Shown here piece after piece: positions 32,434 to 54,419 of a stretch of 64,000 nucleotides of DNA; position 1 is the stretch's first letter; every line of letters starts with the position of its first letter. The DNA comes from Glutamicibacter nicotianae (lineage in GTDB: Bacteria; Actinomycetota; Actinomycetes; Actinomycetales; Micrococcaceae): positions 124,001 through 188,000 of the forward strand of contig NZ_BJNE01000004.1 in assembly GCF_006539525.1 (NCBI RefSeq), in the 5' to 3' direction. The position numbers and the translations under genes are program-made. The notes under the pieces were generated by a model that made no database searches, had not been told where the DNA came from, and saw only the letters and a list, made by a program, of their open reading frames with translations.

Positions 32434-32519
32434 CCATCGGTCCCGGCCTTAGCACCGCTCCCGTTTACGGGTGGTTGCTGCGACTTCAACGAGCCAGGTC
32501 TCTCGGTCGCTCTGGATGG
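32434..32519 (-). ncRNA. SAM-I (S-box) riboswitch A, upstream of importer-monooxygenase operon
   Basis: 86 nt. P1 is CCATC/GATGG at the ends. The core reads CGAGAGACCTGGCTCGTTGA then GCAACC, a P3 hairpin (CCCGTAAACGGG) and GGTGCTA, matching the SAM-I consensus. P2 is GCGAC/GTCGC with the kink-turn GA elements. The P2-loop CCTGGC can pair with GCCGGG downstream (one G-U), the SAM-I pseudoknot. It lies 127 bases before the substrate-binding gene start, so SAM should repress the operon. Nearly identical 5' half to riboswitch B. Confidence 0.92.
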
Positions 32520-32739
32520 GGTGTGCGGCTGTACCGGCCGAACAATTCAAGTCTGCAACCCGTGAATTCAGCAGACAAGCGTTACGTAAGACAGGGGTCA
32601 TGAAGTCACACAACGCATTCTGAAATGCCCGATGTTCGTCATATTGGGCGTAATACTCTGTCACAAGTCCAAGGATTAAGCACCTTGACAGGAAATCCTT
32701 GACGCTGCTGGCCTAGGCGGAGACAATGCGTCATCAGGA

Positions 32740-32783
32740 GCGCGAAGCGGCCCGGCTCCTGTCGGTGCCGGGCCGCTTCGCGC
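32740..32783 (-). terminator. Strong hairpin after metQ
   Basis: 17-bp perfect GC-rich stem (32740-32756 with 32767-32783) and ten-base loop, starting 34 bases past the metQ stop on the minus strand. No T tract follows. Likely ends metNIQ transcription before riboswitch A. Nothing else coding is seen in 32520-32816. Confidence 0.7.
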
Positions 32784-32816
32784 ACGCCGAAACGTGCGGC
32801 GCAATGGGGGTTGCCG

Positions 32817-33728
32817 TCAGGAACCGGAGACCGGGGTGAGCACTCCCTGGACCAGCGGATCCTCGGTCGTGGCCAGGTACTCCTGCAGCCGCGGATCGGA
32901 AAATGCTTCCACCAGCTTCTGCTCATCGGCGCTCTTGGCATACTCCGCGCCCATGATCAGGCGGGAGGCAAAGGTCTTGGGCGGCTCGGGGAACAAGATC
33001 CCCTGGTCGCGGTCGACCTTGCCCGCATCGAACTGGGAGACGTAGCCGATCGCCACGCCGACGTCGTCGAGCATGCGCGGCATCGCCAGCAGGTCGGCTT
33101 CCTTCAGCTCGAAGCCCCGGGGGTTATCGATGACATCGGAGATCTTCGCGGTGCGCGGTTCGATGTCCGGGTCCAGGCCGAGCAGGCCCTCGCGTTGCAG
33201 CAGCCACAGCGCCTGGCCCTGGTTGGCCACGTCGTTGGGCAGCAGCAGCGAGGCGCCGCGCGGGATGTCCTCGACCGAGTCGTAATGGTTCGAGTAGAGC
33301 CCGAAACCCCACTGGAAGAGCTCCACCGTGGGTTCCAGCTCGACTCCGGCAGCCTCGGCGGACTGCTCCATGTACCACTGGTGCTCGAAAATGGTGGCAT
33401 CGAATTGGCCGCTGGCCACCGCCTGGTTGGCCTGGATCGGATCCTGCAGCCCGGCCTTCTCGATTTCGATGCCGTAGTCCGGTGCGATCTGGCGCGCCAC
33501 GAAATCCAGGATCTTCTCCTCCCCGGCCATGGCCGGTTCGAAGTGGACCGTGAACTTCGTCTGGCTTCCGGCGGCCGAGGCGGCGGCAGGGGCGGAGCGC
33601 TGCTGGCCCAGCAGCACGCCGAGGATGAGGGCGGCCACGGCCGCGAGGGAGGCGATGGTCCAGGGAAGGGCATTGCGGTTCTTGCGCAGCGTGAAGCCGT
33701 GGTCGTGCCCGGTGTGCGGTGTAGTCAT
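32817..33728 (-). CDS. metQ: MetQ-family methionine-binding protein, membrane-anchored without lipobox
   Basis: 303 residues, NlpA/MetQ fold: TKFTVHFEPAMAGEEKILDF, GLQDPIQANQAVASGQFDAT, IFEHQWYMEQSAEAAGVELE, VANQGQALWLLQREGLLGLD, DEQKLVEAFSDPRLQEYLAT. Binds methionine outside the membrane for MetNI. Oddity: the N-terminus (MTTPHTGHDHGFTLRKNRNA, then a helix ~22-41) has no Cys lipobox, so it is probably tethered by an uncleaved helix. Third gene of metNIQ, 33 bases after metI, under SAM riboswitch B. Confidence 0.9.
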   Translation of the reverse strand: MTTPHTGHDHGFTLRKNRNALPWTIASLAAVAALILGVLLGQQRSAPAAASAAGSQTKFTVHFEPAMAGEEKILDFVARQIAPDYGIEIEKAGLQDPIQANQAVASGQFDATIFEHQWYMEQSAEAAGVELEPTVELFQWGFGLYSNHYDSVEDIPRGASLLLPNDVANQGQALWLLQREGLLGLDPDIEPRTAKISDVIDNPRGFELKEADLLAMPRMLDDVGVAIGYVSQFDAGKVDRDQGILFPEPPKTFASRLIMGAEYAKSADEQKLVEAFSDPRLQEYLATTEDPLVQGVLTPVSGS

Positions 33729-33761
33729 GGTCTCGCTCGTTCGTTCGTTCGTCGATGGTGT

Positions 33762-34457
33762 TCAGGGACGCGCCAGGGCGCGGGCGATGCGGTCGCCGAG
33801 GAATTGGACAATTTGCACGGTCAGGATCAGCACCACGATGGTCGCCAGCATGACATTCATGTCGAAGCGCTGGTAGCCGTAGGTCACGGCGAGATAGCCG
33901 ATGCCCCCGGCCCCGATGGTCCCGGCGATGGCCGAGTACTCGATCATCGAGATGGTGTTCAGCGTGATGGCCGAGGCCAGGGCCGGCAGCGCCTCGCGGA
34001 TCTGGGTGGTGCCGATGATCTGCGCGGCCGAACCGCCGGTCACCAGCCCTACGGCCAGGTTGTGCCTCGGCAGGTCGTTCAGCGCGTTCTGCACCAGCCG
34101 GGCGAAGAACGGGATGCCGGCAATGGTCATGGGCACGGCGGCCGCGGCAATGCCGATGGTGGTGCCGGTGACCCATTTGGTGAAGGGGATGATCGCTGCC
34201 ATCAGCACCAGGAACGGCAGGGAGCGTCCCATGTTGGCGATCCAGCTGAGCACCGCATGCAGGCGCGCCCGCGGGAAGAGCCCCTGCCGATCGGTGTTGT
34301 ACAGCGCGATGCCCATCAGTCCTCCGAGGCTGATGACCAGGGCCATGACGATTCCGACCATGGCCCAGGTCTGGCCGTAGGCCGGCAGCATCAACTCGGG
34401 CAATTGCTGCCACGGAGTGTCGGTGCCCACCGCTGCGCTTTCAAAGGGGATTCTCAT
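33762..34457 (-). CDS. metI: Methionine ABC transporter permease MetI
   Basis: 231 residues, five to six membrane helices: QTWAMVGIVMALVISLGGLM, the conserved NMGRSLPFLVLMAAIIPFTK, TTIGIAAAAVPMTIAGIPFF, and the EAA-type coupling loop ALPALASAITLNTISMIEYS. Ends GDRIARALARP. Its ATG overlaps the metN stop (ATGA), so translation is coupled. Moves methionine with MetN and MetQ. Confidence 0.95.
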   Translation of the reverse strand: MRIPFESAAVGTDTPWQQLPELMLPAYGQTWAMVGIVMALVISLGGLMGIALYNTDRQGLFPRARLHAVLSWIANMGRSLPFLVLMAAIIPFTKWVTGTTIGIAAAAVPMTIAGIPFFARLVQNALNDLPRHNLAVGLVTGGSAAQIIGTTQIREALPALASAITLNTISMIEYSAIAGTIGAGGIGYLAVTYGYQRFDMNVMLATIVVLILTVQIVQFLGDRIARALARP

Positions 34458-35473
34458 GCGTTGGCCTCCACCAGTTCGCGATTGTTGCGGGCCAGGCTGC
34501 CCGGGTCGGCGTGCAGGCCCCACCCGTCCAGCAACCGGACCAGGTCCTGAGGGCTCGTGCCCCGAACGCCCAAGCGCACGCGGCCCAAGGTCCCCTCGTG
34601 GTGCGCCTCGACGGCCCCGCCAAGCAGGGCCACCGCGATCCCGTGCTCGATGCCCAGCCGGGAGATCCAGCCGGGATCGACCCGGTCTTTGCGGTAGGCC
34701 ACCGTCACGGCATAGTCGAAGCCTGCCGGCAGGTCCTCGGCCCGCAGCGGCAGCAGCTTCTCCCCGGTCGCCGAGCCTGGGGAGGCCACCAGCTCATGCA
34801 GGGCTCCGTGCTCGGCAATGCGCCCGCCGGCCAGCTGGGCGACCTCGTCGGCCACATGCCGCACCACATCCATCTCATGGGTGATCAGGATGATGGACAG
34901 GCCCAGGTCGCTGCGCAGCGAATCCAGCAGCCCCAGCACCTGGTGCGTGGATTCGGGATCCAGGCCCGAGGTGGCTTCGTCGGAGAGCAGCAGCCGTGGC
35001 CGCAGGGCCAGGGCCCGGGCGATGCCGACGCGCTGCCGCTGGCCGCCGGAGAGCTGCCCGGGATAGGCGTTCGCCTTCTCCAGCAGCCCGACCCGGTCCA
35101 GCAGCTGGGCCACCCGCTGCTGCATTTCGTGGTGGACCACCCCGAGGTTCCGCAGCGGAAGGGCCACGTTCTCGGCGACGCTCAGCCGGCTCAGCAGGGC
35201 CGAGTTCTGGAAGATCGTGCCGATGGCGCGGCGTTCAGCGCGCAAGGCCCTGCCAGAGAGCGCGCCGAGATCCTTGCCGTCGACGAGGATCTGTCCGCTG
35301 CTGGGCTTCTCCAGCAGCGAGATGCAATGGGACAGGGTCGATTTGCCTGCCCCGGAAGGGCCGACCACTGCGGTGATCGAGCCTTCCGGCACCGACAGGT
35401 CGATCCCCTTGAGCACCTCGATGCGCCCCTGCGCGGTGTCATAGTGCTTGTGCAGATCCTTGATCTCGATCAT
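34454..35473 (-). CDS. metN: Methionine ABC transporter ATPase MetN with NIL domain
   Basis: 339 residues. ABC domain 1-245: EVLKGIDLSVPEGSITAVVG, Walker A GPSGAGKST, signature QLSGGQRQRVGIARAL, Walker B LLLSDEATSGLDPEST. The C-terminal NIL domain (~265-335: DYAVTVAYRKDRVDPGWISR and VRLGVRGTSPQDLVRLLDGW) is the methionine-sensing module that shuts transport when cytosolic methionine is high. ATG 35473 has AAGGAG upstream. Begins 95 bases after SAM riboswitch B. Confidence 0.96.
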   Translation of the reverse strand: MIEIKDLHKHYDTAQGRIEVLKGIDLSVPEGSITAVVGPSGAGKSTLSHCISLLEKPSSGQILVDGKDLGALSGRALRAERRAIGTIFQNSALLSRLSVAENVALPLRNLGVVHHEMQQRVAQLLDRVGLLEKANAYPGQLSGGQRQRVGIARALALRPRLLLSDEATSGLDPESTHQVLGLLDSLRSDLGLSIILITHEMDVVRHVADEVAQLAGGRIAEHGALHELVASPGSATGEKLLPLRAEDLPAGFDYAVTVAYRKDRVDPGWISRLGIEHGIAVALLGGAVEAHHEGTLGRVRLGVRGTSPQDLVRLLDGWGLHADPGSLARNNRELVEANA

Positions 35474-35568
35474 GCTGCGTGCTCCTTGGATGTTGCACCG
35501 GGAAGGACTGCCCAGGGCCGAGGCTGTGCCGGCTCGTAGCCAGGCGTGGCCCGGTGGCAGCCACTGCT

Positions 35569-35654
35569 CCATCGGTCCTGGCGGTAGCACCGTCCCGCGG
35601 TTCGGGTGGTTGCTGCGACGTCAACGAGCCAGGTCTCTCGGTCGCTCTGGATGG
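35569..35654 (-). ncRNA. SAM-I (S-box) riboswitch B, upstream of metNIQ
   Basis: 86 nt with CCATC/GATGG as P1, CGAGAGACCTGGCTCGTTGA, GCAACC, a P3 hairpin and GGTGCTACCGCCAGGACC. The P2-loop CCTGGC pairs perfectly with GCCAGG. The intervening 95 bases to metN contain no clear intrinsic terminator, which favours control of translation or Rho access. The promoter must lie in 35655-35940, otherwise empty of genes. Confidence 0.93.
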
Positions 35655-35940
35655 GTTGCCCGGCCTTGGCGGCCAGGTGTTCCCAGTCTGCGTTCCATGC
35701 CCGGACCGAGCCAAGAGTTGCGCAACACTGCGACATCACGTCATCCCCGGTGCAAGGATGCGGGCCGTCGGCGTCATCTTCGGCGTCATGATTCGCCGCA
35801 TTGCCCCGCGTGTGACCTTCCGGGACGCAGGTGCCCTCGCGGATTTGACCTCGGCCTTGGGTCCTGTCCCCGGCTGGGCATCGGGAATACGCGCAGCTGG
35901 CCTACGGTTGGAATCACCGAATGCCTTGGAAAGGAATGCC

Positions 35941-36804: not shown

Positions 36805-36827
36805 CACCCTCTCATCAAGGGTCCAAC

Positions 36828-36867
36828 GGGCAGGCGCTCGCGGCAGTCGTTGCCGTGGTGCCTGCCC
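36828..36867 (+). terminator. Hairpin after QorB-like gene
   Basis: GGGCAGGC (36828-36835) pairs with GCCTGCCC (36860-36867), with an inner CGGCA/TGCCG stem. Followed by TTCAGCTT, a weak T stretch. Confidence 0.6.
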
Positions 36868-37020
36868 TTCAGCTTCTGAGCGTCATAACCGCGAATATTC
36901 GCTCGACAAGGGGAAATTTAACACCCAAAAAGATTGTGCCGCGTGTCACAAGCTCGCTGGGAGGTTCCGCTCCCGTAAATTTGCGCATACTTCATCCCCA
37001 CCTGAAGAGGAGATCAAAGT

Positions 37021-38844
37021 ATGCCACGAGCACGTTTGAGGCCAGTTGCCTGCGCTGCAGCCATCGCCTTGGGCCTGGGAGCTTTCTCGGCTGTGCCGGC
37101 GAGCGCGGATCCACGCCACACCGAAAAAGTCCCGACGGCCATTGGAACCGGAGGCGCGGTGTCTTCGGTGGACCCGGAGGCCACCGCCGCCGGCATCGAA
37201 GTCCTGCGCAAGGGAGGCAACGCCGTGGATGCGGCTGTGGCCACCGCGGCGGCACTGGGCGTCACCGAACCCTACAGCGCCGGCATTGGCGGTGGCGGAT
37301 ACTTCCTCTACTACGATGCGCAGTCGGGAAAGGTCAGCACGATCGATGGTCGCGAAACCGCCCCGGCAGGCATTGCCAAAGATGCATTCATCGATCCTGA
37401 AACCGGCGAGCCGTACAACTTCACCCCGGAACTGGTTACCAGCGGCGTGGCAGTCGGCGTGCCCGGAACCTTGGCCACATGGCAACGCGCCCTGGACAAT
37501 TGGGGTTCGCAGAACCTGAAGCAGGTCCTGCGGCCGGCAACCAAAATCGCTTCCCGCGGCTTTGCCATTGATGAGACGTTCCGCGAGCAGACCTTGGACA
37601 ACAAGGAACGGTTCGCCGCGTTCCCTGCCACGAGCGAATTGTTCTTGCCCGGCGGGGATGCTCCCCAGGTCGGGACCATCTTCAAGAATCCGGATCTTGC
37701 CGACACCTACCGGATGCTGGCCAAGCAAGGCCTCGACGGGTTCTATGCGGGAGACTTGGCTGCCGAGATCGCCCACACGGTGCAGGCACCGCCAAAGAGC
37801 GCAGATACCGGCCTCCCGGTTCCCGCGGGGCAGTTGTCCACCACCGATCTGGCCGGCTACGAAGTGGTTGAGCAGGAACCCACGCAAGTGGATTACCGGG
37901 GCTACGATGTCTTCGGCATGGCTCCATCTTCCAGCGGAGGAACCACCATCGGCGAATCGCTGAACATCCTGGGCCAGTTCGACGTGGCGGCCATGGACGA
38001 AGCCGATGCGTTGCACCATTATTTCGAGGCAACTGCTCTTGCCTACGCTGATCGCGGCAAGTTCGTCGGCGACCCGGCTTTCGCCAATGTTCCGACCCAG
38101 ACCCTGACCGGCAAGCTGTTCGGTGCGGAGCGTGCATGTGCCATCGATCCGGACCAGGCCGCGGCCAAGCCGGTCGCTCCGGGCGATATCGAGAACTATG
38201 ATGGCCAATGCCCTGCCACCACCAGCGAGCCGGTTGAAGAGCAGGATACGGAAAACATCTCCACCACCCACCTGTCGGTGGTGGATCGCTGGGGCAACGT
38301 CGTGTCCTACACGTTGACCATCGAGCAGACCGGCGGTTCGGGCATGGTGGTTCCGGGCCGGGGTTTCCTGCTGAACAACGAACTGACCGATTTCTCCACC
38401 GTGTATGATCCGCAGGATCCGAACCGCATTGAACCCGGCAAGCGCCCGCGCTCCTCGATGGCGCCAACCATTGTCCTGCAGGAGGGCGAACCGGTGCTGG
38501 CCATCGGTTCCCCAGGCGGTTCAACCATCATCACCACGGTGCTGCAGACCCTGGTGAACCGCATCGATTTGGGCATGAGCATCAGCGAGGCCATCGCCGC
38601 GCCGCGGGCATCTCAGCGCAATACGTCCGCTATCACCGCGGAACCCGAGTTCATCGAAGCCTATGGCCCTGCACTTGAGGCCTTTGGCCACAAGCTCACG
38701 CCTGCTGGCGATTCCTTCACCCCGCAGACTGAAATCGGTGCCGTTGAAGCGGTGGAAATCGCAGCCGATGGCACGCTCACCGCGGCGGCCGAGCCCACCA
38801 GGCGCGGCGGCGGCTCGGCCATGGTGCTGGAGCCAACCGAGTAG
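37021..38844 (+). CDS. ggt: Gamma-glutamyltransferase
   Basis: 607 residues. Secreted (signal RPVACAAAIALGLGAFSAVP, cleavage near ASA-DP). Cleaves gamma-glutamyl bonds, classically of glutathione, to give Cys-Gly. Conserved: VSSVDPEATAAGIEVLRKGG, GGGGYFLYYD, DGRETAP, and the autoprocessing site STTHLSVVD with Thr416 as predicted catalytic N-terminus of the small subunit. Then PGRGFLLNNELTDF, KRPRSSMAPTIV and GSPGGSTIITTVLQTLVNRI. Its place inside the riboswitch-flanked sulfur region suggests use of thiol peptides as sulfur source, though no SAM riboswitch precedes it. Confidence 0.95.
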   Translation: MPRARLRPVACAAAIALGLGAFSAVPASADPRHTEKVPTAIGTGGAVSSVDPEATAAGIEVLRKGGNAVDAAVATAAALGVTEPYSAGIGGGGYFLYYDAQSGKVSTIDGRETAPAGIAKDAFIDPETGEPYNFTPELVTSGVAVGVPGTLATWQRALDNWGSQNLKQVLRPATKIASRGFAIDETFREQTLDNKERFAAFPATSELFLPGGDAPQVGTIFKNPDLADTYRMLAKQGLDGFYAGDLAAEIAHTVQAPPKSADTGLPVPAGQLSTTDLAGYEVVEQEPTQVDYRGYDVFGMAPSSSGGTTIGESLNILGQFDVAAMDEADALHHYFEATALAYADRGKFVGDPAFANVPTQTLTGKLFGAERACAIDPDQAAAKPVAPGDIENYDGQCPATTSEPVEEQDTENISTTHLSVVDRWGNVVSYTLTIEQTGGSGMVVPGRGFLLNNELTDFSTVYDPQDPNRIEPGKRPRSSMAPTIVLQEGEPVLAIGSPGGSTIITTVLQTLVNRIDLGMSISEAIAAPRASQRNTSAITAEPEFIEAYGPALEAFGHKLTPAGDSFTPQTEIGAVEAVEIAADGTLTAAAEPTRRGGGSAMVLEPTE

Positions 38845-38856
38845 GCGTGCAGAAAA

Positions 38857-38903: not shown

Positions 38904-38927
38904 CTATTGCGCTAGCTGGCCAACTGC

Positions 38928-40331
38928 TCAGGCCTGGGTGGCCAGCCGGTTGGCGACCTTGTACTGGGCTGCGCGGTGGGTGCCCTTCACGCGGTCGCCG
39001 GCGCCGAAGAGCTTGTTGCGCAGCGAGCCCTTGGCGTACTCGGTCTTGTATGCGCCGCGCGCTTGCAGCTCGGGGACCACGTACTTCACGACGTCCTCGA
39101 AGGTTCCCGGGGTGATTGCGTAGGCCAGGTTGAAGCCATCCACGTCGGTGTAGTCCACCCAGTCGATGAGCTTCTCGGCGACCTCGGCGCCGGATCCGAC
39201 GGTAATCGGGCCGAAGCCGCCCACGCCGACCCACTCGGCCAGCTGGCGGATGGTCCACGGGTTGCCCTCGTCGCCGCTGGCCTTCTGGAAGGTTTCGACC
39301 GTGGACTGGATGGCGTTGGACTTCACGTTGGCTCCGATGACGTCGTCCGGGCCGTACTCGGACAGGTCAACGCCCATCCATCCGGAGATCAGCACCTGGG
39401 CGCCCTCGATGTCGGCGTAGGACTTGTAGTCCTCGAACTTCGCCTGGGCCGCGGCCGAGTCCTCGCCGGTGATGATGGTCTGCATGGCGAAGATCTTCAC
39501 GTCGTGGCGGTCGCGCCCGGCGGCTTCGACGGCATCGCGGATCTTGGTGACGGTGGCCTTGAGCATCTCGCGGGTCGGGCTGGTGACGAACACGGCCTCG
39601 GCATTCTCGGAGGCGAACTTGATGCCGCGGCTGGAAGCGCCGGCCTGGTAGATCACCGGGGTGCGCTGGGTGCTCGGCTCGGTGATGGCGATGCCCGGCA
39701 CCTTGAAGTACTTGCCCTCGTGCTCGATCGGGTGCACCTTGGCCGGGTCGGTGTAGATGCCGGTGGCCTTGTCGGCCTGCACGGCGTCGTCTTCCCAGGA
39801 GCCCTCGAGCAGCTTGTAGACCACCTCGAGGTACTCGTCGGCGTGGTTGTAGCGCTCGTCGTGCTCCATCTGGTCTTCCTGGCCCATGTTGCGCGCGGCC
39901 GAGGGCAGGTAGCCGGTGACCACGTTCCAGCCGACGCGGCCGTTGGTCAGGTGGTCCAGGGTGGCCAGGCGGCGGGCGAACGGGTACGGGTGCTCGTAGG
40001 CGGTGCCGGCGGTGACGCCGAAGCCGAGGTTCTCGGTGACCGCCGCCATCGCGGAGACCAGCAGGAACGGGTCGTTCACCGGGGCCTGGGCGCCGGTGCG
40101 CAGCGGGGACTCGTTGCTGCCGTTGAACACGTCGTAGGTGCCCAGCACATCGGCCAGGAACAACCCATCGAACTTGCCCTCTTCCAGCACCTTGGCCAGG
40201 TGGGTCCAGTAGCCCAGGGTCTTGTAGTCGGCGGCCTTGTCCTGCGGGTGGCGCCACAGGCCCGGCGACTGGTGCACCACGCAGTTCATGTCGAATGCGT
40301 TGAATAGGATCTCGCGCTTGTTCTCGCTCAT
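38928..40331 (-). CDS. NtaA/DmoA (DszA/SnaA) family FMN-dependent monooxygenase, second copy
   Basis: 467 residues. Same family as the gene at 24453 but clearly divergent: FNAFDMNCVVHQSPGLWRHP, FLADVLGTYDVFNGSNESPL, TAGTAYEHPYPFARRLATLD, GRVGWNVVTGYLPSAARNMG, TPVIYQAGASSRGIKFASEN and VDGFNLAYAITPGTFEDVVK. Two-component monooxygenase needing FMNH2 from another protein. Second gene of the riboswitch-C operon, 58 bases after the SfnB-like gene. The start is fixed by homology at ATG 40331. Probable organosulfur C-S cleavage; substrate unknown. Confidence 0.92.
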   Translation of the reverse strand: MSENKREILFNAFDMNCVVHQSPGLWRHPQDKAADYKTLGYWTHLAKVLEEGKFDGLFLADVLGTYDVFNGSNESPLRTGAQAPVNDPFLLVSAMAAVTENLGFGVTAGTAYEHPYPFARRLATLDHLTNGRVGWNVVTGYLPSAARNMGQEDQMEHDERYNHADEYLEVVYKLLEGSWEDDAVQADKATGIYTDPAKVHPIEHEGKYFKVPGIAITEPSTQRTPVIYQAGASSRGIKFASENAEAVFVTSPTREMLKATVTKIRDAVEAAGRDRHDVKIFAMQTIITGEDSAAAQAKFEDYKSYADIEGAQVLISGWMGVDLSEYGPDDVIGANVKSNAIQSTVETFQKASGDEGNPWTIRQLAEWVGVGGFGPITVGSGAEVAEKLIDWVDYTDVDGFNLAYAITPGTFEDVVKYVVPELQARGAYKTEYAKGSLRNKLFGAGDRVKGTHRAAQYKVANRLATQA

Positions 40332-40389
40332 GTCTTTGCCCCCATTAGGTCGATGTTCATGGAAAGTATCTGGTTTGCGTCGCGGGCGC

Positions 40390-41721
40390 TCAGGCCCGCT
40401 GGGCCGAATCTTCGCCGGTGACGGACAGCCGCTGCGGCTGGACTCCGTTGATCTCGTAGTCCCCGACGATGCGCGCCTTGTAGATCGCCGGGTTGTGCGT
40501 GGCGATGGTGCGCGCATTGCGCCAGTGCCGGTCAAGGTTGCAGCCGCTTCTGGTGGACGAGGCCCCCAGCCCGTCGAAGAGCTTGCTCGTCACCCCGATG
40601 GCCAGCGGCTGCACCACGGTTTGCGCACGGTTGGCTGCCAGCTCGCAGACCGCATAGCGTTCCTCGTCGTTCAGCCCCGGATCGCCCAGGGCCGCCTCGA
40701 CTTCGAGCACCGCGCCGATCACCACCGAGTCGGCAGCGGAGGATTCCGCGGACACCTCCCCCACCAGTTGCAGGACCTGGGGTTCCTGGTATACCGGCAC
40801 CCCTGTTCCGGTGGTGAAGATGCGGGTGCGTGCCTGCACCGCGCTGCGCAGGTCGTTCAGCGCGGCGCGGGCGATGCCTGCCTGCACGGACATGAGCACC
40901 AGCTGGAAGATCGCCGCTTCGGAGTCATTGCGCTGCTGCGGCATGAAGCAGTCCACCGGGACCTGATGGAATTCGGTGGTGCCGGTTCCGGTCAGGCCCT
41001 GGCCGAATCCGTCCCAGTCATCGAGGATCTTGACGCCGCTGCGCTGGGTGGACACCACCGCGATCTGGCGTCCGGCAAGCTCAGGGTGTGCCACCGCAAC
41101 AGTGGTCCAGTCGGCAAAGATGGTGCCGGTGCAGTAGTACTTCTCGCCGTCGACTACCCAGCGCCCGTCCACGAAGCTGGCCTTCGTATTCAAGGTGCCC
41201 AGGGCGTTGCCGCCGCGCTCGGTGTAGGCGTTGCCGACAATCTGCCCGGCGGCGATGCGGGCCACCCACTTCTTGCGCAGCGCCTCGTCTTCCAGTGCCA
41301 GCACATTCTCGACAAAAGCGATATGCGCGCGCCACAGCTGGCCTACATGGGAGTCGGCCTCGGAGAGCTCGATGAGCAGGCGGAAGACATCCACCAGCCG
41401 CGCACCGTAGCCGCCGTCGGCCACGGGAAGGCGCAGCGCGCCGAAGCGCTCGCGGTTCAGCAGGCCTACCTGCTCGAAGGGAAGCACGCGGTTCAGGTCG
41501 CGGTCCTTGGCGGTCGCGGCGATCTGAGCGAAGACCGGGCGGAAGATTTCGGCCAGCCGGTCGTACTGCTCATCCGCGCCGGGGCCAGGGGTGATCTTGA
41601 GCAGCTGCCGGGTGGGCAGCTGCTCCTCGAACTTGTCCAGTTCCAGCGCGGTGGCCTGCGAAGGATCGCTGAGCTGGTTGAAGTCCAGCCCTGGGGCATT
41701 CGGTGATTCGCCAATAGGCAT
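40390..41721 (-). CDS. SfnB-family sulfur acquisition oxidoreductase
   Basis: 443 residues. Acyl-CoA dehydrogenase fold of the SfnB type: DLNRVLPFEQVGLLNRERFG, RLPVADGGYGARLVDVFRLL, GNAYTERGGNALGTLNTKAS, GEKYYCTGTIFADWTTVAVA, KILDDWDGFGQGLTGTGTTE and HWRNARTIATHNPAIYKARI. SfnB proteins act in alkyl sulfone and sulfide use for sulfur. ATG 41721 is only 18 bases past SAM riboswitch C; an upstream TTG (41733), with GGA partly inside the P1 stem, is also possible. Either way the start is in direct reach of riboswitch folding. Confidence 0.92.
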   Translation of the reverse strand: MPIGESPNAPGLDFNQLSDPSQATALELDKFEEQLPTRQLLKITPGPGADEQYDRLAEIFRPVFAQIAATAKDRDLNRVLPFEQVGLLNRERFGALRLPVADGGYGARLVDVFRLLIELSEADSHVGQLWRAHIAFVENVLALEDEALRKKWVARIAAGQIVGNAYTERGGNALGTLNTKASFVDGRWVVDGEKYYCTGTIFADWTTVAVAHPELAGRQIAVVSTQRSGVKILDDWDGFGQGLTGTGTTEFHQVPVDCFMPQQRNDSEAAIFQLVLMSVQAGIARAALNDLRSAVQARTRIFTTGTGVPVYQEPQVLQLVGEVSAESSAADSVVIGAVLEVEAALGDPGLNDEERYAVCELAANRAQTVVQPLAIGVTSKLFDGLGASSTRSGCNLDRHWRNARTIATHNPAIYKARIVGDYEINGVQPQRLSVTGEDSAQRA

Positions 41722-41739
41722 CAGGGTTCTCAATTCTTT

Positions 41740-41825
41740 CCATCGGTCCTGGCGGTAGCACCGTCCCGCTCTTCGGGTGGTTGCTGCGGCGTCATGGAGC
41801 CAGATCTCTCAGCCGCTCTGGATGG
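41740..41825 (-). ncRNA. SAM-I (S-box) riboswitch C, upstream of SfnB/NtaA operon
   Basis: 86 nt, P1 CCATC/GATGG. Core GAGAGATCTGGCTCCATGA, GCAACC, P3 hairpin, GGTGCTACCGCCAGGACC. Loop CTGGC pairs with GCCAG for the pseudoknot. The ribosome-binding region (GATGGAAAG) overlaps the 3' strand of P1, so SAM-stabilised P1 would hide it. Divergent to riboswitch D across 273 bases. Confidence 0.93.
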
Positions 41826-42098
41826 GTCGTCATTCATTTGTAACGGTAATAATCCGGCCCTTCCAAGCCGCGAAGTCATATTTCGCCTCGGAGCGGGGAG
41901 GCCCTAGGCTCAATTCCCACAGCCTAATCGCCGTCCCATCGAAGATGAGTTGCACGGATTGGCTTGCAGTCGATCAAACCGGACCTAGGTGAAATAAATA
42001 ACGAAATTTCTGGGCAATGTGACGCAGTTGTCGAAGATTTTTTCATGTTACGCAAGATTTGCGTCCAAATCGTTCGACTCGCTGTAATAGAAGGGTAA
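41826..42098. promoter_or_regulatory. Shared divergent promoter region between riboswitches C and D
   Basis: 273 bases, AT-richer than its surroundings, no gene. For the ssu side TAATAG at ~42086 sits about 12 bases before the riboswitch and could be a -10 element; the matching -35 is weak. I found no convincing repressor palindrome. Both transcripts start within or next to this space and both carry a SAM riboswitch. Confidence 0.5.
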
Positions 42099-42195
42099 CC
42101 ATCCCGAGCGGCCGAGAGATCTGGCTCTTTGACGCCGCAGCAACCACCTTCGGAGCTCCACCTCCGCAGGCCGGTGCTACCGCCAGGACCGATGG
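42099..42195 (+). ncRNA. SAM-I (S-box) riboswitch D, upstream of ssuBAC
   Basis: 97 nt, P1 CCATC (42099-42103) with GATGG (42191-42195). Core GAGAGATCTGGCTCTTTGA, GCAACC, a longer P3 hairpin (CGGAGctccacCTCCG), GGTGCTACCGCCAGGACC; loop CTGGC pairs with GCCAG. The ssuB Shine-Dalgarno GGAG (42194-42197) shares two bases with P1 and stands six bases before ATG 42204, the clearest case here of a SAM riboswitch acting directly on translation start. Confidence 0.94.
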
Positions 42196-42203
42196 AGATT
42201 GAT

Positions 42204-45021: not shown

Positions 45022-46983
45022 ATGACCACCGAATTGGCAACAACCTCAGCACCTGAATCAGAGGCGGCACGCCAGGAATTCTGGGACGAAGCGGCGCACC
45101 TTTTGGATTGGGACACCCCGTGGCACACCACCAGCCGCATCATTCCGGCTGACCCCCAGGCGCAACGCGGCCCGGAAATTTCCTGGTATCTCGGCGGCAA
45201 GCTGAACGCGGCAGTGAACTGCGCCGACCGCCACGTCGCCGCAGGACGCGGCGAGAAGGTTGCGCTGTACTTCGAAGGCGAACCCGGCGACCGCGTTGCA
45301 GTCACCTACAAGAATCTGCAGGAGCGGGTTTCCCAAGCTGCCAATGCCTTGGAATCCCTGGGCGTGGTGAAGGGCGACCGCGTGGTCATCTACCTGCCGG
45401 TGCTCATTGAAACCATCGTCATCACCTTGGCATGCGCCCGCATCGGCGCCATCCACTCGCTGGTCTTCGGCGGGTTCTCTGCCGAAGCACTGAAGTTCCG
45501 CGTGGAAGACACCAAGGCGAAGGTGCTGGTCACCACCGACGGCCAGTTCCGCCGCGGCACCTCGGTCCCGGTCAAGGACAACGCCGATGCGGCAGTTGCC
45601 GGCGAGAACGAAATCGAAAAGGTGCTGGTGATCCGCCGAACCGGAGATGAGATCCCGTGGACCGAGGGCCGCGACGTCTGGTGGCATGAGGTGGTTGATA
45701 CCCAGTCCACCGAGCACACCCCGGAGTTCTTCGACTCCGAGACGCCGCTGTTCATCATGTACACCTCGGGGACCACCGGCCAGCCCAAGGGCCTGGTGCA
45801 CACCACCGGCGGCTACCTGACGCAGGCGGCCACCAGCTACAACATGCTGTTCGCCAATCCAGACGAGTCCCAGCGCGAGCACGATGTGCACTGGTGCACC
45901 GCTGACCTGGCCTGGGTCACCGCCCACACCTACGAGATCTACGGTCCACTGGCTAACGGCGTCACCCAGGTCATCTACGAGGGCGTGCCCAACGCCCCGC
46001 ATCCGGGCCGGCACTTCGAGGTCATCGAACGCTACAAGGTCACCAGCTACTACACCGCTCCCACCTTGGTCCGCTCGCTGATGGGCTGGTTCCCCGACGG
46101 CATCCCGGCAGAATACGACCTGTCGTCGGTGAAGATCGGCGGCACCGTGGGCGAAGCGGTCAACCCCGAGGCGTGGAAATGGTTCCGCCAGCAGATTGGC
46201 CGCGACACCGCGGCGGGCCTGCCCATGGTCGATACCTGGTGGCAGTCGGAGTCCGGCGCGACAGTGCTTTCCCCATTGCCTACGGATGAGCACTTCAAGC
46301 CGGGTTGCGCCGCACGTCCGCTGCCGGGCATTTCGGTGGACATCGTTGACGCCAATGGCCGCAGCATGCCGGCCAACGAGCAGGGAAATATTGTCATTAC
46401 CCGCACCGGCCCGTCAATGGCCCGTACCGTTTGGGGCAATCCGGCACGCTACTACACCAGCTACTGGGAACAATACGTCGAGCAAGGCTGGTTCCTGGCC
46501 GGTGACGGTGCCCGCTTCGATGAGGACGGCGACATCTACATCCTGGGCCGCACCGATGACGTGATCAACATTTCCGGCCATCGGCTGTCCACCATCGAGA
46601 TCGAGTCGGCGCTGGTCACCAACCCCGGTGTGGTGGAAGCCGGCGTCTGCCCCACCCCGGATCCCAAGACCGGACACGCTGCTACCGCCTTCGTTGTGCC
46701 GCTGGACAAGACCCTGATCGCCGAGTCGCCTGATGCGGATCTCGCTGCCCGGCAGGCCGAATTCATCGCCGAGCTTCGCGAGACCGTCGCGGTCCAGATC
46801 GGCCCGATTGCCAAGCCGCGTGAAATCGTCCTGGTTCCAGATGTGCCCAAGACGCGTTCTGGCAAGATCATGCGCCGCCTGCTCACCCAGTTGTTCGAGG
46901 GCACCACGCTCGGCGATACGACAAGTCTGCAGAATGAGCCGTGCATCCCGGAGATCAACGCGATCTGCCGCGCTCGCGGCTAA
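45022..46983 (+). CDS. acsA: Acetyl-coenzyme A synthetase
   Basis: 653 residues, full length for AMP-forming Acs: acetate + ATP + CoA to acetyl-CoA. Motifs: ALYFEGEPGDRVAVTYKNLQ, FIMYTSGTTGQPKGLVHTTG (P-loop), VDTWWQSESGA (acetate pocket Trp), WFLAGDGARFDEDGDIYILG, DDVINISGHRLSTIEIES and the acetylation-site RSGKIMRR (Lys615). Own promoter space of 61 bases after ssuC and a strong bidirectional terminator downstream. Lets the cell use external acetate, or acetate released by degradation. Confidence 0.96.
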   Translation: MTTELATTSAPESEAARQEFWDEAAHLLDWDTPWHTTSRIIPADPQAQRGPEISWYLGGKLNAAVNCADRHVAAGRGEKVALYFEGEPGDRVAVTYKNLQERVSQAANALESLGVVKGDRVVIYLPVLIETIVITLACARIGAIHSLVFGGFSAEALKFRVEDTKAKVLVTTDGQFRRGTSVPVKDNADAAVAGENEIEKVLVIRRTGDEIPWTEGRDVWWHEVVDTQSTEHTPEFFDSETPLFIMYTSGTTGQPKGLVHTTGGYLTQAATSYNMLFANPDESQREHDVHWCTADLAWVTAHTYEIYGPLANGVTQVIYEGVPNAPHPGRHFEVIERYKVTSYYTAPTLVRSLMGWFPDGIPAEYDLSSVKIGGTVGEAVNPEAWKWFRQQIGRDTAAGLPMVDTWWQSESGATVLSPLPTDEHFKPGCAARPLPGISVDIVDANGRSMPANEQGNIVITRTGPSMARTVWGNPARYYTSYWEQYVEQGWFLAGDGARFDEDGDIYILGRTDDVINISGHRLSTIEIESALVTNPGVVEAGVCPTPDPKTGHAATAFVVPLDKTLIAESPDADLAARQAEFIAELRETVAVQIGPIAKPREIVLVPDVPKTRSGKIMRRLLTQLFEGTTLGDTTSLQNEPCIPEINAICRARG

Positions 46984-47060: not shown

Positions 47061-47067
47061 CCGGTAA

Positions 47068-48945
47068 TTACTCCCCGGCAGTTGGCTTCGGGCTCTCGCC
47101 GTCGCCCTCAGTTTTCTTGCCGTCCTCCACCGGGTCAATGGTGGCCTCGGTGGCTTCGGTGGCGAAGATCTTCACTTCAGCCTCCTTGCCATCGGCACTG
47201 ACCAAAGGAATTTCGGTGGTCATCAAGCTGAACTGGCTGCCCTCATGGCGGTCAATCGCCTGGCCCACGGAATGCTCAAGCACCTTGCGGGCCACCTTGT
47301 CGCCCAGCACCAGCGGATCGTTGCTCAAGTCCTTCCACAACGCCACGCAGAGCAGCAGCATCACGATGACGAACGGCAGCGCCGAAACAATGGTGATGTT
47401 CTTCAGGCCGTTCAATGCCTCCGCCGGATGATCACCGCCAGCCAGCAGCATCACCGCGGCAACAGCACCGGTGGCCACGCCCCAGAAGATCACCGCCTTC
47501 TTGGTTGGCTCTTCGGCGCCGCGTTCGCTGAGCGCACCCATCACGATCGAGGCCGAGTCTGCGCCGGTCACGAAGAAGATCGCAATCAGCAGCACGGTGA
47601 CGACCATCAGCACGGTAGCCACCCAGCCTGCCAGCGGCAGGCGGCCGAGCATGTCGAAGAGGATCAGATCGAAGTTGATGTCTGGGGCGCCATCGACGAT
47701 ATTGGCCAGCTTTTCCCCGGTTTCCCCGGCGCGTTCGGCACGTTCCTGAATGCCGATTGCGCCGCCACCGAAGATCGAGAACCAGATCAAGGTGACAGTC
47801 GATGGCACCAGCAGCACGCCGGTAACGAACTGGCGAATCGTGCGGCCGCGGGAGATGCGGGCGATGAACAGGCCGACGAATGGGCTCCAGGAGATCCACC
47901 AGGCCCAGTAGAAGACGGTCCACGAGGACAGCCAATCAGACATTGCAACATCGCCAGCCGCCGTGCGCGAAGCCATCTCCGGCAAGTCGCCAATGAAGGA
48001 GCCAATGGCGTTGGGGATGACATTAAGGATGAACAGCGTTGGACCGCCAATGAATACGATCAACGCGATGATCACTGCCAGCACCATGTTGGTGTTGGAC
48101 AGCCACTGGATGCCGCGCTCAATGCCGGAAACAGCGGAAGCAACGAACAAGGCAGTCAAAATCGCGATGATGACCACCAGAACGCCGGAACCGACTTTCT
48201 CCATCATCCCGGTGGCCTGGATGCCGCCGCCAATCTGCAATGCGCCAAGGCCCAGCGAACAGGCCGAGCCGAAGAGCGTGGCGATGATAGCCAGGATGTT
48301 AATCGTGCGGCCGCCCCAGCCGTGGATGGCGCGGTCGCCGAAGAGCGAGCTGAACATGGCGGAGAACAGCTGCGGGCGTCCCAGCCGGAAGCTGCCGTAG
48401 GCCATGCCCAAGCCGACAATCGCGTACATGGCCCATGGGAACAGCGTCCAGTGGAAGAGCGTGGTGCCCATAGCGGTACTCAGTGCCTCGCTGGTGGAGC
48501 CTTCCACGGTTCCCGGAGGAGGCGACATGTAGAAGTACAGCGGTTCGCCGACCCCGTAGAAGACCAGTCCGATGCCCATGCCGGTGGCAAACATCATCGA
48601 GATCCACGAAACCGTGGAGAACTGTGGCGATTCACCGTCCTTGCCCAGCGGGATGCGCCCGAAATTCTTCGCTGCTACGACAATAGCGAAGACCGCGAAT
48701 AATGCGGCGGCGATGACAAAAAGCCAACCAGTGTTGGTGATAACCCAGTCCAAGGCTGCGCTGGAGGCCTTGCCCAGCCCCGACGGGGTGGAGAAACCCC
48801 AAATGATGAATGCCAGCGCGATAACGCCGGCGATTCCGAATACCCAATAATCCGTACCGGAAAGGGAGTACTTCTTAGGTCGCCTGTGGCGAACTGAATG
48901 CAGTTCCTCGACGAGGTCTACGATTGATTGATCCGTCTGCTTCAT
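47068..48945 (-). CDS. BCCT-family (betaine/carnitine/choline) transporter
   Basis: 625 residues, 12 predicted membrane helices. Family motifs: LGKDGESPQFSTVSWISMMF, FATGMGIGLVFYGVGEPLYF, LFHWTLFPWAMYAIVGLGMA, and the conserved Trp-rich SWTVFYWAWWISWSPFVGLF, then FARISRGRTIRQFV-like (IARISRGRTIRQFVTGVLLV). Acidic C-terminal tail. Sodium- or proton-coupled uptake of quaternary ammonium osmolytes such as glycine betaine; some members take DMSP. The usual two glycine-rich segments of Na+-coupled carriers are present. Transcribed from the large 48946-49607 gap. Confidence 0.93.
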   Translation of the reverse strand: MKQTDQSIVDLVEELHSVRHRRPKKYSLSGTDYWVFGIAGVIALAFIIWGFSTPSGLGKASSAALDWVITNTGWLFVIAAALFAVFAIVVAAKNFGRIPLGKDGESPQFSTVSWISMMFATGMGIGLVFYGVGEPLYFYMSPPPGTVEGSTSEALSTAMGTTLFHWTLFPWAMYAIVGLGMAYGSFRLGRPQLFSAMFSSLFGDRAIHGWGGRTINILAIIATLFGSACSLGLGALQIGGGIQATGMMEKVGSGVLVVIIAILTALFVASAVSGIERGIQWLSNTNMVLAVIIALIVFIGGPTLFILNVIPNAIGSFIGDLPEMASRTAAGDVAMSDWLSSWTVFYWAWWISWSPFVGLFIARISRGRTIRQFVTGVLLVPSTVTLIWFSIFGGGAIGIQERAERAGETGEKLANIVDGAPDINFDLILFDMLGRLPLAGWVATVLMVVTVLLIAIFFVTGADSASIVMGALSERGAEEPTKKAVIFWGVATGAVAAVMLLAGGDHPAEALNGLKNITIVSALPFVIVMLLLCVALWKDLSNDPLVLGDKVARKVLEHSVGQAIDRHEGSQFSLMTTEIPLVSADGKEAEVKIFATEATEATIDPVEDGKKTEGDGESPKPTAGE

Positions 48946-49607: not shown

Positions 49608-52320
<2,713 letters not shown>

Positions 52321-52352
52321 CCGCTAACCGGCCGCTAGCTTCAGGCAGATAG

Positions 52353-52401
52353 TGCTGGGCTGTTGCTCCCCCGATGGGAAGCAACAGCCCAGCATTTGTT
52401 T
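52353..52401. terminator. Bidirectional terminator katG / ogt
   Basis: 14-bp perfect stem (52353-52366 with 52381-52394), 14-base loop, followed by TTTGTTTA. Between convergent katG and ogt. Confidence 0.88.
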
Positions 52402-52418
52402 AATCCGGCTATGGGCAG

Positions 52419-53048
52419 TTAGAAAAGCGTCGCCGCGCTGCCGGCGAAGTCCGGATTCTCCAGTTTCAGCAGCTCCGTCTTGGCTTGCAGCCCTCCCAGA
52501 TAGCCGCCCAGCGAACCATCGGTGCGCAGCACGCGGTGGCAGGGCAGCACGATGGGAATCGGGTTGGTGGCGCACGCTGAGCCGACGGCGCGCACCGCCT
52601 TCGGCTTGCCGATCTGCTGCGCCAGCTGGGCGTAGCTGCGGGTCTGCCCGTACTCGATGTGCCCCAGTTCCAGCTGCACCTGGCGGCGGAACTCGGTGGA
52701 GAGCTGCAGATCCACCGGGAGCTCGAAACTGTGCCGTGTTCCCGCGAAGTACTCATCCAGTTGCCGGGCGGTCCCATCCAGGCTCGTCTTGTCGCGCAGG
52801 ATGCGTGGGCTGAGCTTTTCCGAAAGCAGCTCAAGTATCCGGTCATGGCCCTCGGATTCGAATGCCACCCGCACCAGCCCGGCATCGGTGCTTGCCAGCA
52901 GCAATGAACCCACTGGGCTGTCGACCACCCGATAGGCGACATCGACAAGTTCAAATGCCCGGGCTCGCTCAACGAGCTGGCCATGCAGCGCGTCGAGGGC
53001 TTGCATTTCAGCGGCCGTCGCCTGCGGCCGATAATTTTTTTCGTTCAT
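52419..53048 (-). CDS. ogt: Methylated-DNA--protein-cysteine methyltransferase
   Basis: 209 residues. Suicide repair protein taking the methyl from O6-methylguanine onto Cys170 in the IVLPCHRVLR motif; the preceding SYAQLAQQIGKPKAVRAVGS is the helix-turn-helix with the arginine finger, and GSLGGYLGGLQAKTELL follows. The N-terminal ~115 residues form the usual Ogt N-domain. ATG 53048 overlaps the sigma-factor stop as ATGA, so the two are coupled; the longer open frame lies inside the sigma gene. Confidence 0.94.
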   Translation of the reverse strand: MNEKNYRPQATAAEMQALDALHGQLVERARAFELVDVAYRVVDSPVGSLLLASTDAGLVRVAFESEGHDRILELLSEKLSPRILRDKTSLDGTARQLDEYFAGTRHSFELPVDLQLSTEFRRQVQLELGHIEYGQTRSYAQLAQQIGKPKAVRAVGSACATNPIPIVLPCHRVLRTDGSLGGYLGGLQAKTELLKLENPDFAGSAATLF

Positions 53049-53542
53049 GGCTGCTCCCGCCATAGTTCTTGGTCTGCTAGCCGGGCACGCAGGTTCTTGA
53101 TCCCGTCCGCTCCAGCCCTGCGGGCAGCGGCTTCGCTGCCGGAAAGGATTTCGGCAATTTGCGCATAGCTCATCCCGCCGAGGTACCGATAGGCCACCAC
53201 CTGCCTTTGCTTGCCGGGGAGCTGATTCACCTCGTGCCACAGCTGCAGATTTTCCAGCTGCAGATCCGGCCGGTTCATCCCGGAGCCGGGACCGTCCATG
53301 TCCTGGTCGATGAGGATCTCCGGCTTATGCTTGCGCAACTCGTCAATGGCCTTGTTCCGGGCAATGCGTACCAGCCATGCCAGGACATTGGCCTCCTCGG
53401 GAAGCTGCGGGTAGGCCTTGAGTGCGGCGAGGAAGGTTTCTGACCATGCGTCTTGCGCGCGGTGCTCATCCAGCAGGGCGCGGCAGACACGCAGGACGTT
53501 CAGTCCATAATCTTGGACTATCCGCTCGAATGGTGCTTGCAT
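53045..53542 (-). CDS. RNA polymerase sigma factor, ECF-like, linked to ogt
   Basis: 165 residues. Region 2: ERIVQDYGLNVLRVCRALLD, AQDAWSETFLAALKAY, NVLAWLVRIARNKAIDELRK. Region 4: VNQLPGKQRQVVAYRYLGGM, SYAQIAEILSGSEAAARRAG, DGIKNLRARL. No anti-sigma gene is adjacent; the coupled partner is ogt, an arrangement I recognise from other Actinobacteria. It may direct an alkylation or DNA damage response, but that is inference. ATG 53542 is preceded by AGGAGAGCC. Confidence 0.87.
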   Translation of the reverse strand: MQAPFERIVQDYGLNVLRVCRALLDEHRAQDAWSETFLAALKAYPQLPEEANVLAWLVRIARNKAIDELRKHKPEILIDQDMDGPGSGMNRPDLQLENLQLWHEVNQLPGKQRQVVAYRYLGGMSYAQIAEILSGSEAAARRAGADGIKNLRARLADQELWREQP

Positions 53543-53656
53543 GGCTCTCCTGGGATTTCGCGACCTCGTGGCCTCTCACCATGTAAACGCAGCGGCAACC
53601 GATCCTGTGAGGTGTGAATGAAAAAAATTTCGTTCATGCCGCGACAGCATGGATTT

Positions 53657-54217
53657 CTAGAAGGCCACCAAGTCCAATTCGCCGGCGAGCTGTTCGAGCC
53701 GGGCCAGGTCCACGTCGATGATTTCACCGTTCTCCACGCCTTGGGGTTCCTTGGTACCGGATAGCGCGTCGCGAATGGTGCGCATGGTGGCCCCATGGCT
53801 GACAATCATGATTTTGCGCCCGGCATGCCTGCTGGCGATGTCCAGCAGCGCCGGGACCGCGCGGCTCAAGATGTGCGCACGCGGCTCAATCTGCTCTGCG
53901 GCAGCAGCCGATTCCTCGTCACTGACCTCCGCCATGATCCGGCCTTCCAACGGGCCGAAACCGCGTTCAATGAGTTCCGGAACGGCGTTGCCCGTCGCTG
54001 CTCCGATCTGCTGGGCAATCAGCACGGCAGTTTCCTGGGCGCGTTCCAAGGGGGAAGCCAGAACCAGCGAGAAGCCTTCGCCGATGAGCTTGCGCCCGAC
54101 CTCGCGCGCTTGTTCGCGACCGGTCTCGTTCAACGGAATGTCGGTACGCCCCTGCAGGCGGCCTGCAAGGTTCCAATCGGTCTGCCCATGCCGTACCAGT
54201 GCGAACGAAGTATCCAT
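53657..54217 (-). CDS. Histidine phosphatase family protein
   Basis: 186 residues, phosphoglycerate-mutase-like fold. LVRHGQTDWNLAGRLQGRTD holds the RHG motif (His10 forms the phosphohistidine), LVLASPLERAQETAVLIAQQ the second arginine region, and IMIVSHGATMRTIRDALSG the second catalytic histidine. Acts on small phosphorylated molecules; the precise substrate (sugar phosphate, nucleotide, alpha-ribazole phosphate) is not deducible. Monocistronic; divergent from the riboswitch-E metY leader, 113 bases away. Confidence 0.9.
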   Translation of the reverse strand: MDTSFALVRHGQTDWNLAGRLQGRTDIPLNETGREQAREVGRKLIGEGFSLVLASPLERAQETAVLIAQQIGAATGNAVPELIERGFGPLEGRIMAEVSDEESAAAAEQIEPRAHILSRAVPALLDIASRHAGRKIMIVSHGATMRTIRDALSGTKEPQGVENGEIIDVDLARLEQLAGELDLVAF

Positions 54218-54330
54218 GACTCCAGCCTACCGGTGCAGCAGATGTCGAAGAATCTCCGATATCAGGCCCGATACGCAACGTTACGACTCATAGTTGGGTC
54301 ACGAACGGTCATGTTGCGAAGATTATTACA

Positions 54331-54419
54331 CCATCCCGAGCGGCTGAGAGATCTGGTTCGATGACGCCGCAGCAACCTGCCACATCCGGTGGTTACGGTG
54401 CTACCGCCAGAAACGATGC
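54331..54419 (+). ncRNA. SAM-I (S-box) riboswitch E, upstream of metY
   Basis: 89 nt. P1 CATC/GATG, core GAGAGATCTGGTTCGATGA, GCAACC, P3 (CCACATCCGGTGG), GGTGCTACCGCCAGAAACG. Loop CTGG pairs with CCAG. Slightly diverged from copies A-D in the P2 loop and 3' end. 118 bases of leader separate it from metY and contain the hairpin at 54442. Confidence 0.93.

Follow-up and report, generated by a model that had tools for sequence, protein, structure and literature searches.

Why should 22 kb of a bacterial chromosome carry five riboswitches for S-adenosylmethionine (SAM), and do the genes behind them form one regulon? The question is raised by a locus of Glutamicibacter nicotianae (RefSeq assembly GCF_006539525.1, contig NZ_BJNE01000004.1, positions 124,001 to 188,000), which we analyzed as a single 64-kb window; coordinates below refer to this window unless a contig is named. 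A first-pass annotation had placed five SAM-I leaders at 32434, 35569, 41740, 42099, and 54331 and had proposed that the units behind them answer one intracellular signal.

Five SAM-I riboswitches are clustered in the window

When cmscan was run on the window at gathering thresholds with the complete set of Rfam models, it returned exactly five matches, all to the SAM-I family RF00162. Every one of the proposed leaders was recovered, with scores of 52.1 to 61.8 bits against a gathering threshold of 44.4 bits, and the earlier coordinates proved to lie near the low ends of the matches. Three leaders are on the minus strand and two on the plus strand, which the annotation had left unstated. The whole genome (3.55 Mb in 43 contigs, 99.99% complete) contained seven RF00162 matches, five of them inside the window. 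When seven sites were placed at random on 3.55 Mb, none of 200,000 draws put five within 22 kb; the clustering of SAM-I sites is beyond chance. Matches to RF00162 were found in 3 of 14 control genomes.

The gene units named behind the leaders, namely an oligopeptide-type importer with two monooxygenases, metNIQ, a second monooxygenase pair, ssuBAC, and metY, were right at the family level by Pfam and NCBIfam matches (Table 1), but an acetyl-coenzyme A (acetyl-CoA) synthetase paralogue (acs) that ends the ssuBAC operon had been overlooked. We consider it likely that the five units are headed by riboswitches with a SAM-I core and no P4 helix, jointly repressed at high SAM and derepressed when methionine or SAM is short. 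SAM binding, the OFF logic, and the regulation of the five units by SAM are inferred.

The aptamers keep the SAM-I core and lack P4

The S-box core and the pseudoknot between the P2 loop and junction J3/4 (PK-1), both noted at first pass, were present, with compensatory changes among relatives. With a lineage model built from 20 sequences, we obtained 78 matches from 60 loci, including loci that had contributed to its training set. Pairing was assessed on the 72 distinct rows of the resulting alignment, which is fitted to a model of the lineage: 98.3% of the consensus-pair cells were standard, ten pairs had changes on both sides, and slid control alignments came nowhere near these figures. PK-1 was paired in 99.7% of cells, with compensatory changes in three of its five pairs; examples among relatives are CUUGG/CCAAG, CCCGG/CCGGG, and CGUGG/CCACG. 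What we take to be a kink-turn in P2, assigned by eye from k-turn rules, has A20, G36, and A37 in all 78 sequences and G19 in 67. The SAM-pocket columns, which we mapped ourselves using a residue list from PMC6890682, were identical in 78 of 78 sequences, one column being so in 77.

The aptamers differ from the RF00162 model in one helix. All 78 aligned relatives, a count favored by a model that was built on P4-less sequences, run from J3/4 directly into J4/1, and the P1 strand GAUGG is reached two or three bases after the PK-1 strand (usually GCCAGG). In the Rfam alignments of the window's leaders, the P4 hairpin was skipped in four and filled in the fifth with bases that included several nonstandard pairs. 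The fifth aptamer ends at 54422 by the lineage model and at 54439 by the Rfam alignment, which beyond 54422 is probably out of register, and we read this leader as P4-less as well. Inspection by eye found P4 missing from 34 of 35 RF00162-found sequences of the genus (the 35th being the window's fifth leader, with its doubtful Rfam end) and from all 22 readable sequences among 28 from the order and family. Of the 30 top-scoring RF00162 loci in the phylum, 22 had P4 by eye, and the other eight were unreadable by script (five too short, three cut inside P4). The idea that P4 loss is special to the order was dropped, as other groups of the phylum contain P4-less forms too: among 20 further matches from such groups, 18 that had been picked for shortness lacked P4 by eye, and two long ones carried it. 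Threshold and core place the five leaders in SAM-I, whereas their anatomy makes them a variant; because the P4 of RF00162 is missing from them, we class them as a P4-less variant rather than as standard members.

Leaders and targets are conserved among relatives

All 18 genomes searched in the genus contained RF00162 matches, four to eight each and 116 in total, 6 of them below threshold. At least three matches fell inside 30 kb in 16 of these genomes and at least four in 14; of the two exceptions, one (G011) seems to be split over contigs and the other (G005) had only four matches. Matches were found in 98 of 120 genomes of the family, representing 27 of 32 genera (over threshold in 90 genomes, up to nine per genome), in 20 of 39 genomes sampled across the order, and in 103 of 198 sampled across the phylum. 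The S-box density, which had been called unusual, is so relative to the papers searched, but SAM-I itself is common in the family.

We classified the genes behind 182 distinct sites (192 matches less 10 duplicates), with start codons picked by script and a few target assignments more than 1 kb downstream. At 164 sites, a homologue of a gene from the SAM-riboswitch units of G. nicotianae itself was found within 1.7 kb downstream, and none of the 182 was assigned to the two riboswitch-less neighboring genes, nmrA and ggt, that were included in the same reference set. A separate set comprised the 79 best loci carrying a relative of the SfnB-like protein of the window, 36 actinobacterial by title and 43 others. 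A SAM-I match was present in the fetched stretch of 27 of the 36, less than 300 nt upstream in 17; none was found in the 43 others with a search model trained on this lineage.

The acs gene is a recurrent target. It stands behind the same leader in four loci (L009, L117, L122, and L131) where ssuBAC is gone or only an ssuB remnant is left, and its start codon lies 3 to 7 nt past the aptamer in 12 of 19 acs leaders, including those of Paeniglutamicibacter and Sinomonas (P1 is decayed in two of the 12, L010 7012 and L226 12931). Because acs follows a SAM-I leader in relatives, it is a real member of the ssu unit. Only remnants of the ssuB start lie between riboswitch and acs in L122 (4934, minus strand) and L131 (17790, minus strand). 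From these remnants, the transporter seems to have been lost while leader and acs were retained. A second acs copy, 52% identical, lies elsewhere in the genome. The acs paralogue, noted at 45022-46983 in the window and in L011, L012, L016, L017, and L021, sometimes has a SAM-I leader of its own. Its real substrate may be a sulfur-related acid.

These patterns bear on a different explanation, in which the riboswitches are real but act each on a separate operon and sit together as a result of gene-neighborhood evolution and leader duplication rather than of selection for one regulon, and the monooxygenases are mainly under a sulfur-starvation transcription factor. The aptamers are indeed very alike, a LysR-type gene follows the third monooxygenase pair, and the ssu genes of Corynebacterium glutamicum are under transcription factors, according to PMC2580772. 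However, the same kinds of genes stand behind SAM-I in other genera despite a different gene order, and acs retains its leader in two genomes with only an ssuB remnant. We regard separate control of each operon as possible but unlikely, and favor joint control by SAM.

Leader layout points to translation

The Shine-Dalgarno sequence (SD) GGAG of ssuB (42194-42197), which ends six nt before the ATG at 42204, shares bases with the 3′ strand of P1 (42191-42195, GAUGG); 5 nt separate the aptamer from the start codon. Among the 182 sites, the start codon was 3 to 12 nt past the aptamer in 21 of 27 ssuB, 12 of 19 acs, 16 of 37 sfnB-like, 7 of 22 metN, 2 of 3 flavin reductase, and 1 of 2 osmC leaders. 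The sfnB start is 15 to 18 nt on in eleven leaders of the genus and 6 to 7 nt in those of Paeniglutamicibacter and related leaders. Since P1 overlaps the ribosome-binding site in most ssuB leaders, translation is the likely target. The distance to the start codon is 58 to 124 nt in the window's oppA, metN, and metY leaders. Conserved candidate SD-masking pairs are present in the distal oppA and metY leaders. A hairpin precedes the ATG at 32306 in the oppA leader, and its UCCUC can pair with the SD GAGGA in the fold of the window sequence; the consensus stem is complete in 11 of 12 sequences and broken at two pairs in the twelfth. Intrinsic terminators were rejected as the expression platform: no terminator-like site was found in the five leaders, and the two that were found lie elsewhere.

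We propose that SAM, when abundant, would close P1 and, in the ssuB leader, stop translation directly, since the ribosome-binding site there overlaps its 3′ strand; the start codon of sfnB probably lies 15 nt past the aptamer, and in the three distal leaders the ribosome-binding site would be masked less directly. All five units would fall together at sufficient SAM and rise when methionine or SAM runs short. Low SAM would thus open organosulfur and methionine uptake, to be followed by oxidative cleavage by monooxygenases dependent on flavin mononucleotide (FMN), and MetY would capture the released sulfur. The regulon would be extended by two more SAM-I and five SAM-IV sites elsewhere, among whose targets a flavin reductase is a probable source of reduced flavin.

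Control might instead be exerted at transcription, for example by Rho-dependent termination exposed upon SAM binding. The spacing in the distal leaders of the window leaves room for a Rho-type platform, but intrinsic terminator-like sites are missing from the leaders and start codons follow P1 by 3 to 12 nt in most ssuB and acs leaders, and we find transcriptional control improbable. That the P4-less RNAs bind SAM poorly, as relics, or recognize another ligand is very improbable: the RF00162 model includes P4, as does SAM-I in the comparison of PMC6890682, but the pocket columns are almost invariant, PK-1 is maintained by compensatory change, SAM-IV likewise lacks P4 in that comparison yet binds SAM, and RF00162 matches are retained in 98 of 120 genomes of the family (P4 having been examined in part of them).

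Several observations weigh against the joint control proposed here. The start codon was 3 to 12 nt past the aptamer in 0 of 16 oppA, 0 of 24 metY-family, and 0 of 13 dmoA-like leaders, the script being unable to place the start for 9 of these 13. The SD-masking helices lack convincing covariation (0 of 7 pairs in oppA and 1 of 12 in metY); coupling in the distal leaders is presumed. P1 was already part of the minimum-energy fold without ligand in both leaders folded, and the effect of the ligand must therefore be a stabilization beyond that energy model; that P1 depends on ligand is suggested by the riboswitch class. Scores of the opp-type binding protein and of the SfnB-, MetN-, MetQ-, SsuB-, and SsuC-like proteins fall below the respective cut-offs, which leaves the substrates uncertain. 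The count of assigned targets is biased toward the target groups, because these were defined from the G. nicotianae genome, whose genes, or our model, also served to retrieve most of the loci; 18 of the 182 sites have no assigned target. Pfam scans of the downstream protein at seven of these 18 identified three methylenetetrahydrofolate reductases (MTHFR), one MetE-like protein, one sulfite/nitrite reductase, one solute-binding protein, and one protein with only a regulator domain; seven more look like MTHFR by eye. Finally, sulfite reduction is not in the cluster. The import-to-homocysteine route proposed at first pass is partly covered by the cluster, but the genome's sulfite/nitrite-reductase domains are encoded on two other contigs: C1, for which no SAM riboswitch is listed, and C2, at a distance of about 105 kb from the closest SAM riboswitch.

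SAM-IV sites share targets with SAM-I

Five matches to SAM-IV (RF00634) were found in the same genome, none of them in the window. A SAM-IV identity of the five leaders was rejected, as none is among the RF00634 matches. The ssuB leader, with its start codon so close to the aptamer, also has no untranslated room downstream of P1 for the P5 helix and second pseudoknot (PK-2). All 41 genomes of the family and all 18 of the genus that were searched contained SAM-IV. In 16 of the 17 other genus genomes, the chosen SAM-IV site is followed by a flavin reductase homologue (64 to 94% identity); the seventeenth (G003) had no such match at its chosen site, the only one fetched. Two loci of Nesterenkonia have homologues of the same flavin reductase shortly after SAM-I (43 and 52% identity), and in Arthrobacter sp. 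AQ5-05 SAM-I is followed by an OsmC-like gene (32% identity).

Monooxygenases of the NtaA/DmoA family depend on a partner reductase for their reduced FMN. Pfam scans of 20 window proteins detected no flavin reductase domain. The flavin reductase behind SAM-IV probably supplies reduced flavin to the monooxygenases, and we read the SAM-I and SAM-IV units as one SAM-responsive set that uses two RNA classes.

A possible methanethiol bypass

Canonical MTHFR (PF02219) is absent from 17 of the 18 genus genomes; noncanonical forms were not searched for. In the sole exception, G003, the PF02219 gene is behind a SAM-I leader. Other families of the order likewise have MTHFR behind SAM-I (two Pfam-scanned proteins and six more by eye), as does, in one case judged by eye, another genus of the same family. 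DmoA-type monooxygenases release methanethiol. A speculative and rather doubtful explanation for organosulfur genes under SAM sensors is that their substrates supply methyl group and sulfur together, MetY-family enzymes joining methanethiol to O-acetylhomoserine to give methionine directly. Such a bypass would fit the absence of PF02219 from most of the genus. If it is real, the P4-less SAM-I and SAM-IV sites, including that of the flavin reductase, would be one two-class RNA regulon for the bypass.

Genes around the riboswitches

Both NtaA/DmoA-family proteins of the window pass the TIGR03860 subfamily cut-off, and both SfnB-like proteins fall short of the TIGR04022 equivalog cut-off (Table 1). 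Two luciferase-type proteins were scanned against SsuD (TIGR03565), and both stayed below its cut-off. Among named organisms, those with the closest relatives of a window protein are Glutamicibacter uratoxydans and Arthrobacter-named strains (82 to 87%). Some gene starts differ from the listed frames. ATG 32306 is more likely the true start of the opp-type binding protein; ATG 41721, 15 nt after the aptamer, is the probable start of the second SfnB-like gene, with TTG 41733 as the alternative; and since the frame at 38928-40535 overlaps the preceding gene, this gene probably starts close to 40304, at the beginning of its family match. The CoA-binding-domain gene probably belongs to the metY operon.

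A gamma-glutamyltranspeptidase gene (37021-38844, plus strand) lies between SAM-I units without a riboswitch of its own; it could feed in glutathione sulfur. The window also contains a Fur-family regulator followed by a KatG-size heme peroxidase (49608-52320) and a BCCT transporter (47068-48945), which as far as seen bear no relation to the riboswitches.

Table 1. Riboswitches and associated genes of the window, and SAM riboswitch sites elsewhere in the genome
Feature	Location	Strand	Model and score	Remark
SAM-I aptamer 1, P4-less	32431-32522	-	RF00162, 61.8 bits	Leader of opp-type importer/monooxygenase operon
SAM-I aptamer 2, P4-less	35566-35657	-	RF00162, 56.5 bits	Leader of metNIQ-like importer
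SAM-I aptamer 3, P4-less	41737-41828	-	RF00162, 60.2 bits	Leader of second monooxygenase pair
SAM-I aptamer 4, P4-less	42096-42198	+	RF00162, 52.1 bits	Leader of ssuB
SAM-I aptamer 5, P4-less (as read)	54328-54422	+	RF00162, 52.1 bits	Leader of metY; Rfam match 54328-54439
NtaA/DmoA-family FMN-dependent monooxygenase	24453-25871	-	TIGR03860, 499 bits (cut-off 279.7)	
SfnB/DszC-like flavin monooxygenase	25874-27115	-	TIGR04022, 304.6 bits (below cut-off 430.9)	Acyl-CoA dehydrogenase fold
Double ATP-binding cassette (ABC) ATPase, opp/nik type	27154-28776	-	PF00005	Two stretches
ABC permease	28805-29692	-	PF00528	
ABC permease	29707-30693	-	PF00528	
Substrate-binding protein	30675-32372	-	SBP_bac_5, PF00496; TIGR04028-like, 370.1 bits (below cut-off 468.5)	
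MetQ/NlpA-like lipoprotein	32817-33728	-	PF03180	NCBIfam MetQ models below cut-off
MetI-like permease	33762-34523	-	PF00528	
MetN-like ATPase	34454-35473	-	TIGR02314, 259.8 bits (below cut-off 499.7)	Start 35473
NtaA/DmoA-family FMN-dependent monooxygenase	38928-40535	-	TIGR03860, 540.8 bits (cut-off 279.7)	Match to residues 78-508
SfnB/DszC-like monooxygenase	40390-41733	-	TIGR04022, 256.2 bits (below cut-off 430.9)	
SsuB-like ATPase	42204-43019	+	PF00005; NF008420, 216.2 bits (below cut-off 395)	Start ATG 42204
SsuA-family sulfonate-binding protein	43104-44126	+	TIGR01728, 224.6 bits (cut-off 163.5)	
SsuC-like permease	44133-44960	+	PF00528; NF008470, 174.7 bits (below cut-off 347)	
Acetyl-CoA synthetase paralogue (acs)	45022-46983	+	TIGR02188, 760.9 bits (cut-off 724.95)	Last gene of presumed ssu operon
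MetY, O-acetylhomoserine sulfhydrylase family	54538-55911	+	TIGR01326, 597.7 bits (cut-off 495.1)	
CoA-binding-domain protein	55911-56405	+	PF13380	Touches metY stop
SAM-I site outside window			RF00162	Precedes MetY-like gene and cystathionine gamma-synthase
SAM-I site outside window			RF00162	Precedes two further SfnB/DszC-like genes and LysR regulator
SAM-IV site			RF00634	Precedes MetY (over NF005872 cut-off)
SAM-IV site			RF00634	Precedes flavin reductase
SAM-IV site			RF00634	Precedes OsmC-like protein
SAM-IV sites, two	G000:C10:45297-45410; G000:C2:290635-290747		RF00634	Precede proteins of 88 and 192 aa (frames by eye, no Pfam match)

Comparison with known systems

In the open-licence literature searched, we found no description of ssu or SfnB/DmoA-type genes under SAM-I control in Micrococcaceae, of a P4-less SAM-I, or of a joint SAM-I/SAM-IV regulon; the novelty of all three is provisional. 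Our reading would extend SAM-I control from methionine synthesis to the scavenging and oxidative cleavage of organic sulfur, and it suggests how two SAM riboswitch classes can share one regulon in one cell. It also adds a natural SAM-I aptamer without P4, intermediate in structure between SAM-I and SAM-IV, with a ribosome-binding site that overlaps P1.

The aptamers share with SAM-I (RF00162) the helices P1, P2a/P2b with a kink-turn, and P3, as well as PK-1, the SAM-pocket columns, and an over-threshold score in all five, but they lack P4, and their targets include organosulfur import and cleavage besides methionine genes. According to PMC6890682, SAM-IV (RF00634) differs from SAM-I in having no P4 but possessing PK-2 and P5. 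The core of the SAM clan and the missing P4 are thus common to SAM-IV and the window's aptamers, whereas the kink-turn, the lack of room for P5 and PK-2 in the ssuB leader, and the location of the RF00634 matches elsewhere set these aptamers apart. The proteins match SfnB/DszC and NtaA/DmoA monooxygenase systems with SsuBAC-type import at the family level, but differ in the subthreshold SfnB-like scores and in the SsuD cut-off that the two luciferase-type proteins did not reach. In the Xanthomonas met operon, SAM-I acts mainly on translation through a hairpin platform that sequesters the SD and AUG, as described in PMC7270179. Translational action is proposed here as well, but in the ssuB leader P1 itself overlaps the SD. 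In C. glutamicum, McbR, CysR, and SsuR control sulfur and sulfonate genes, and sulfonate use is tied to the state of the methionine cycle through S-adenosylhomocysteine (PMC2580772). The physiological output is the same as that proposed for G. nicotianae, but the regulators there are proteins, whereas the sensors here are RNAs.

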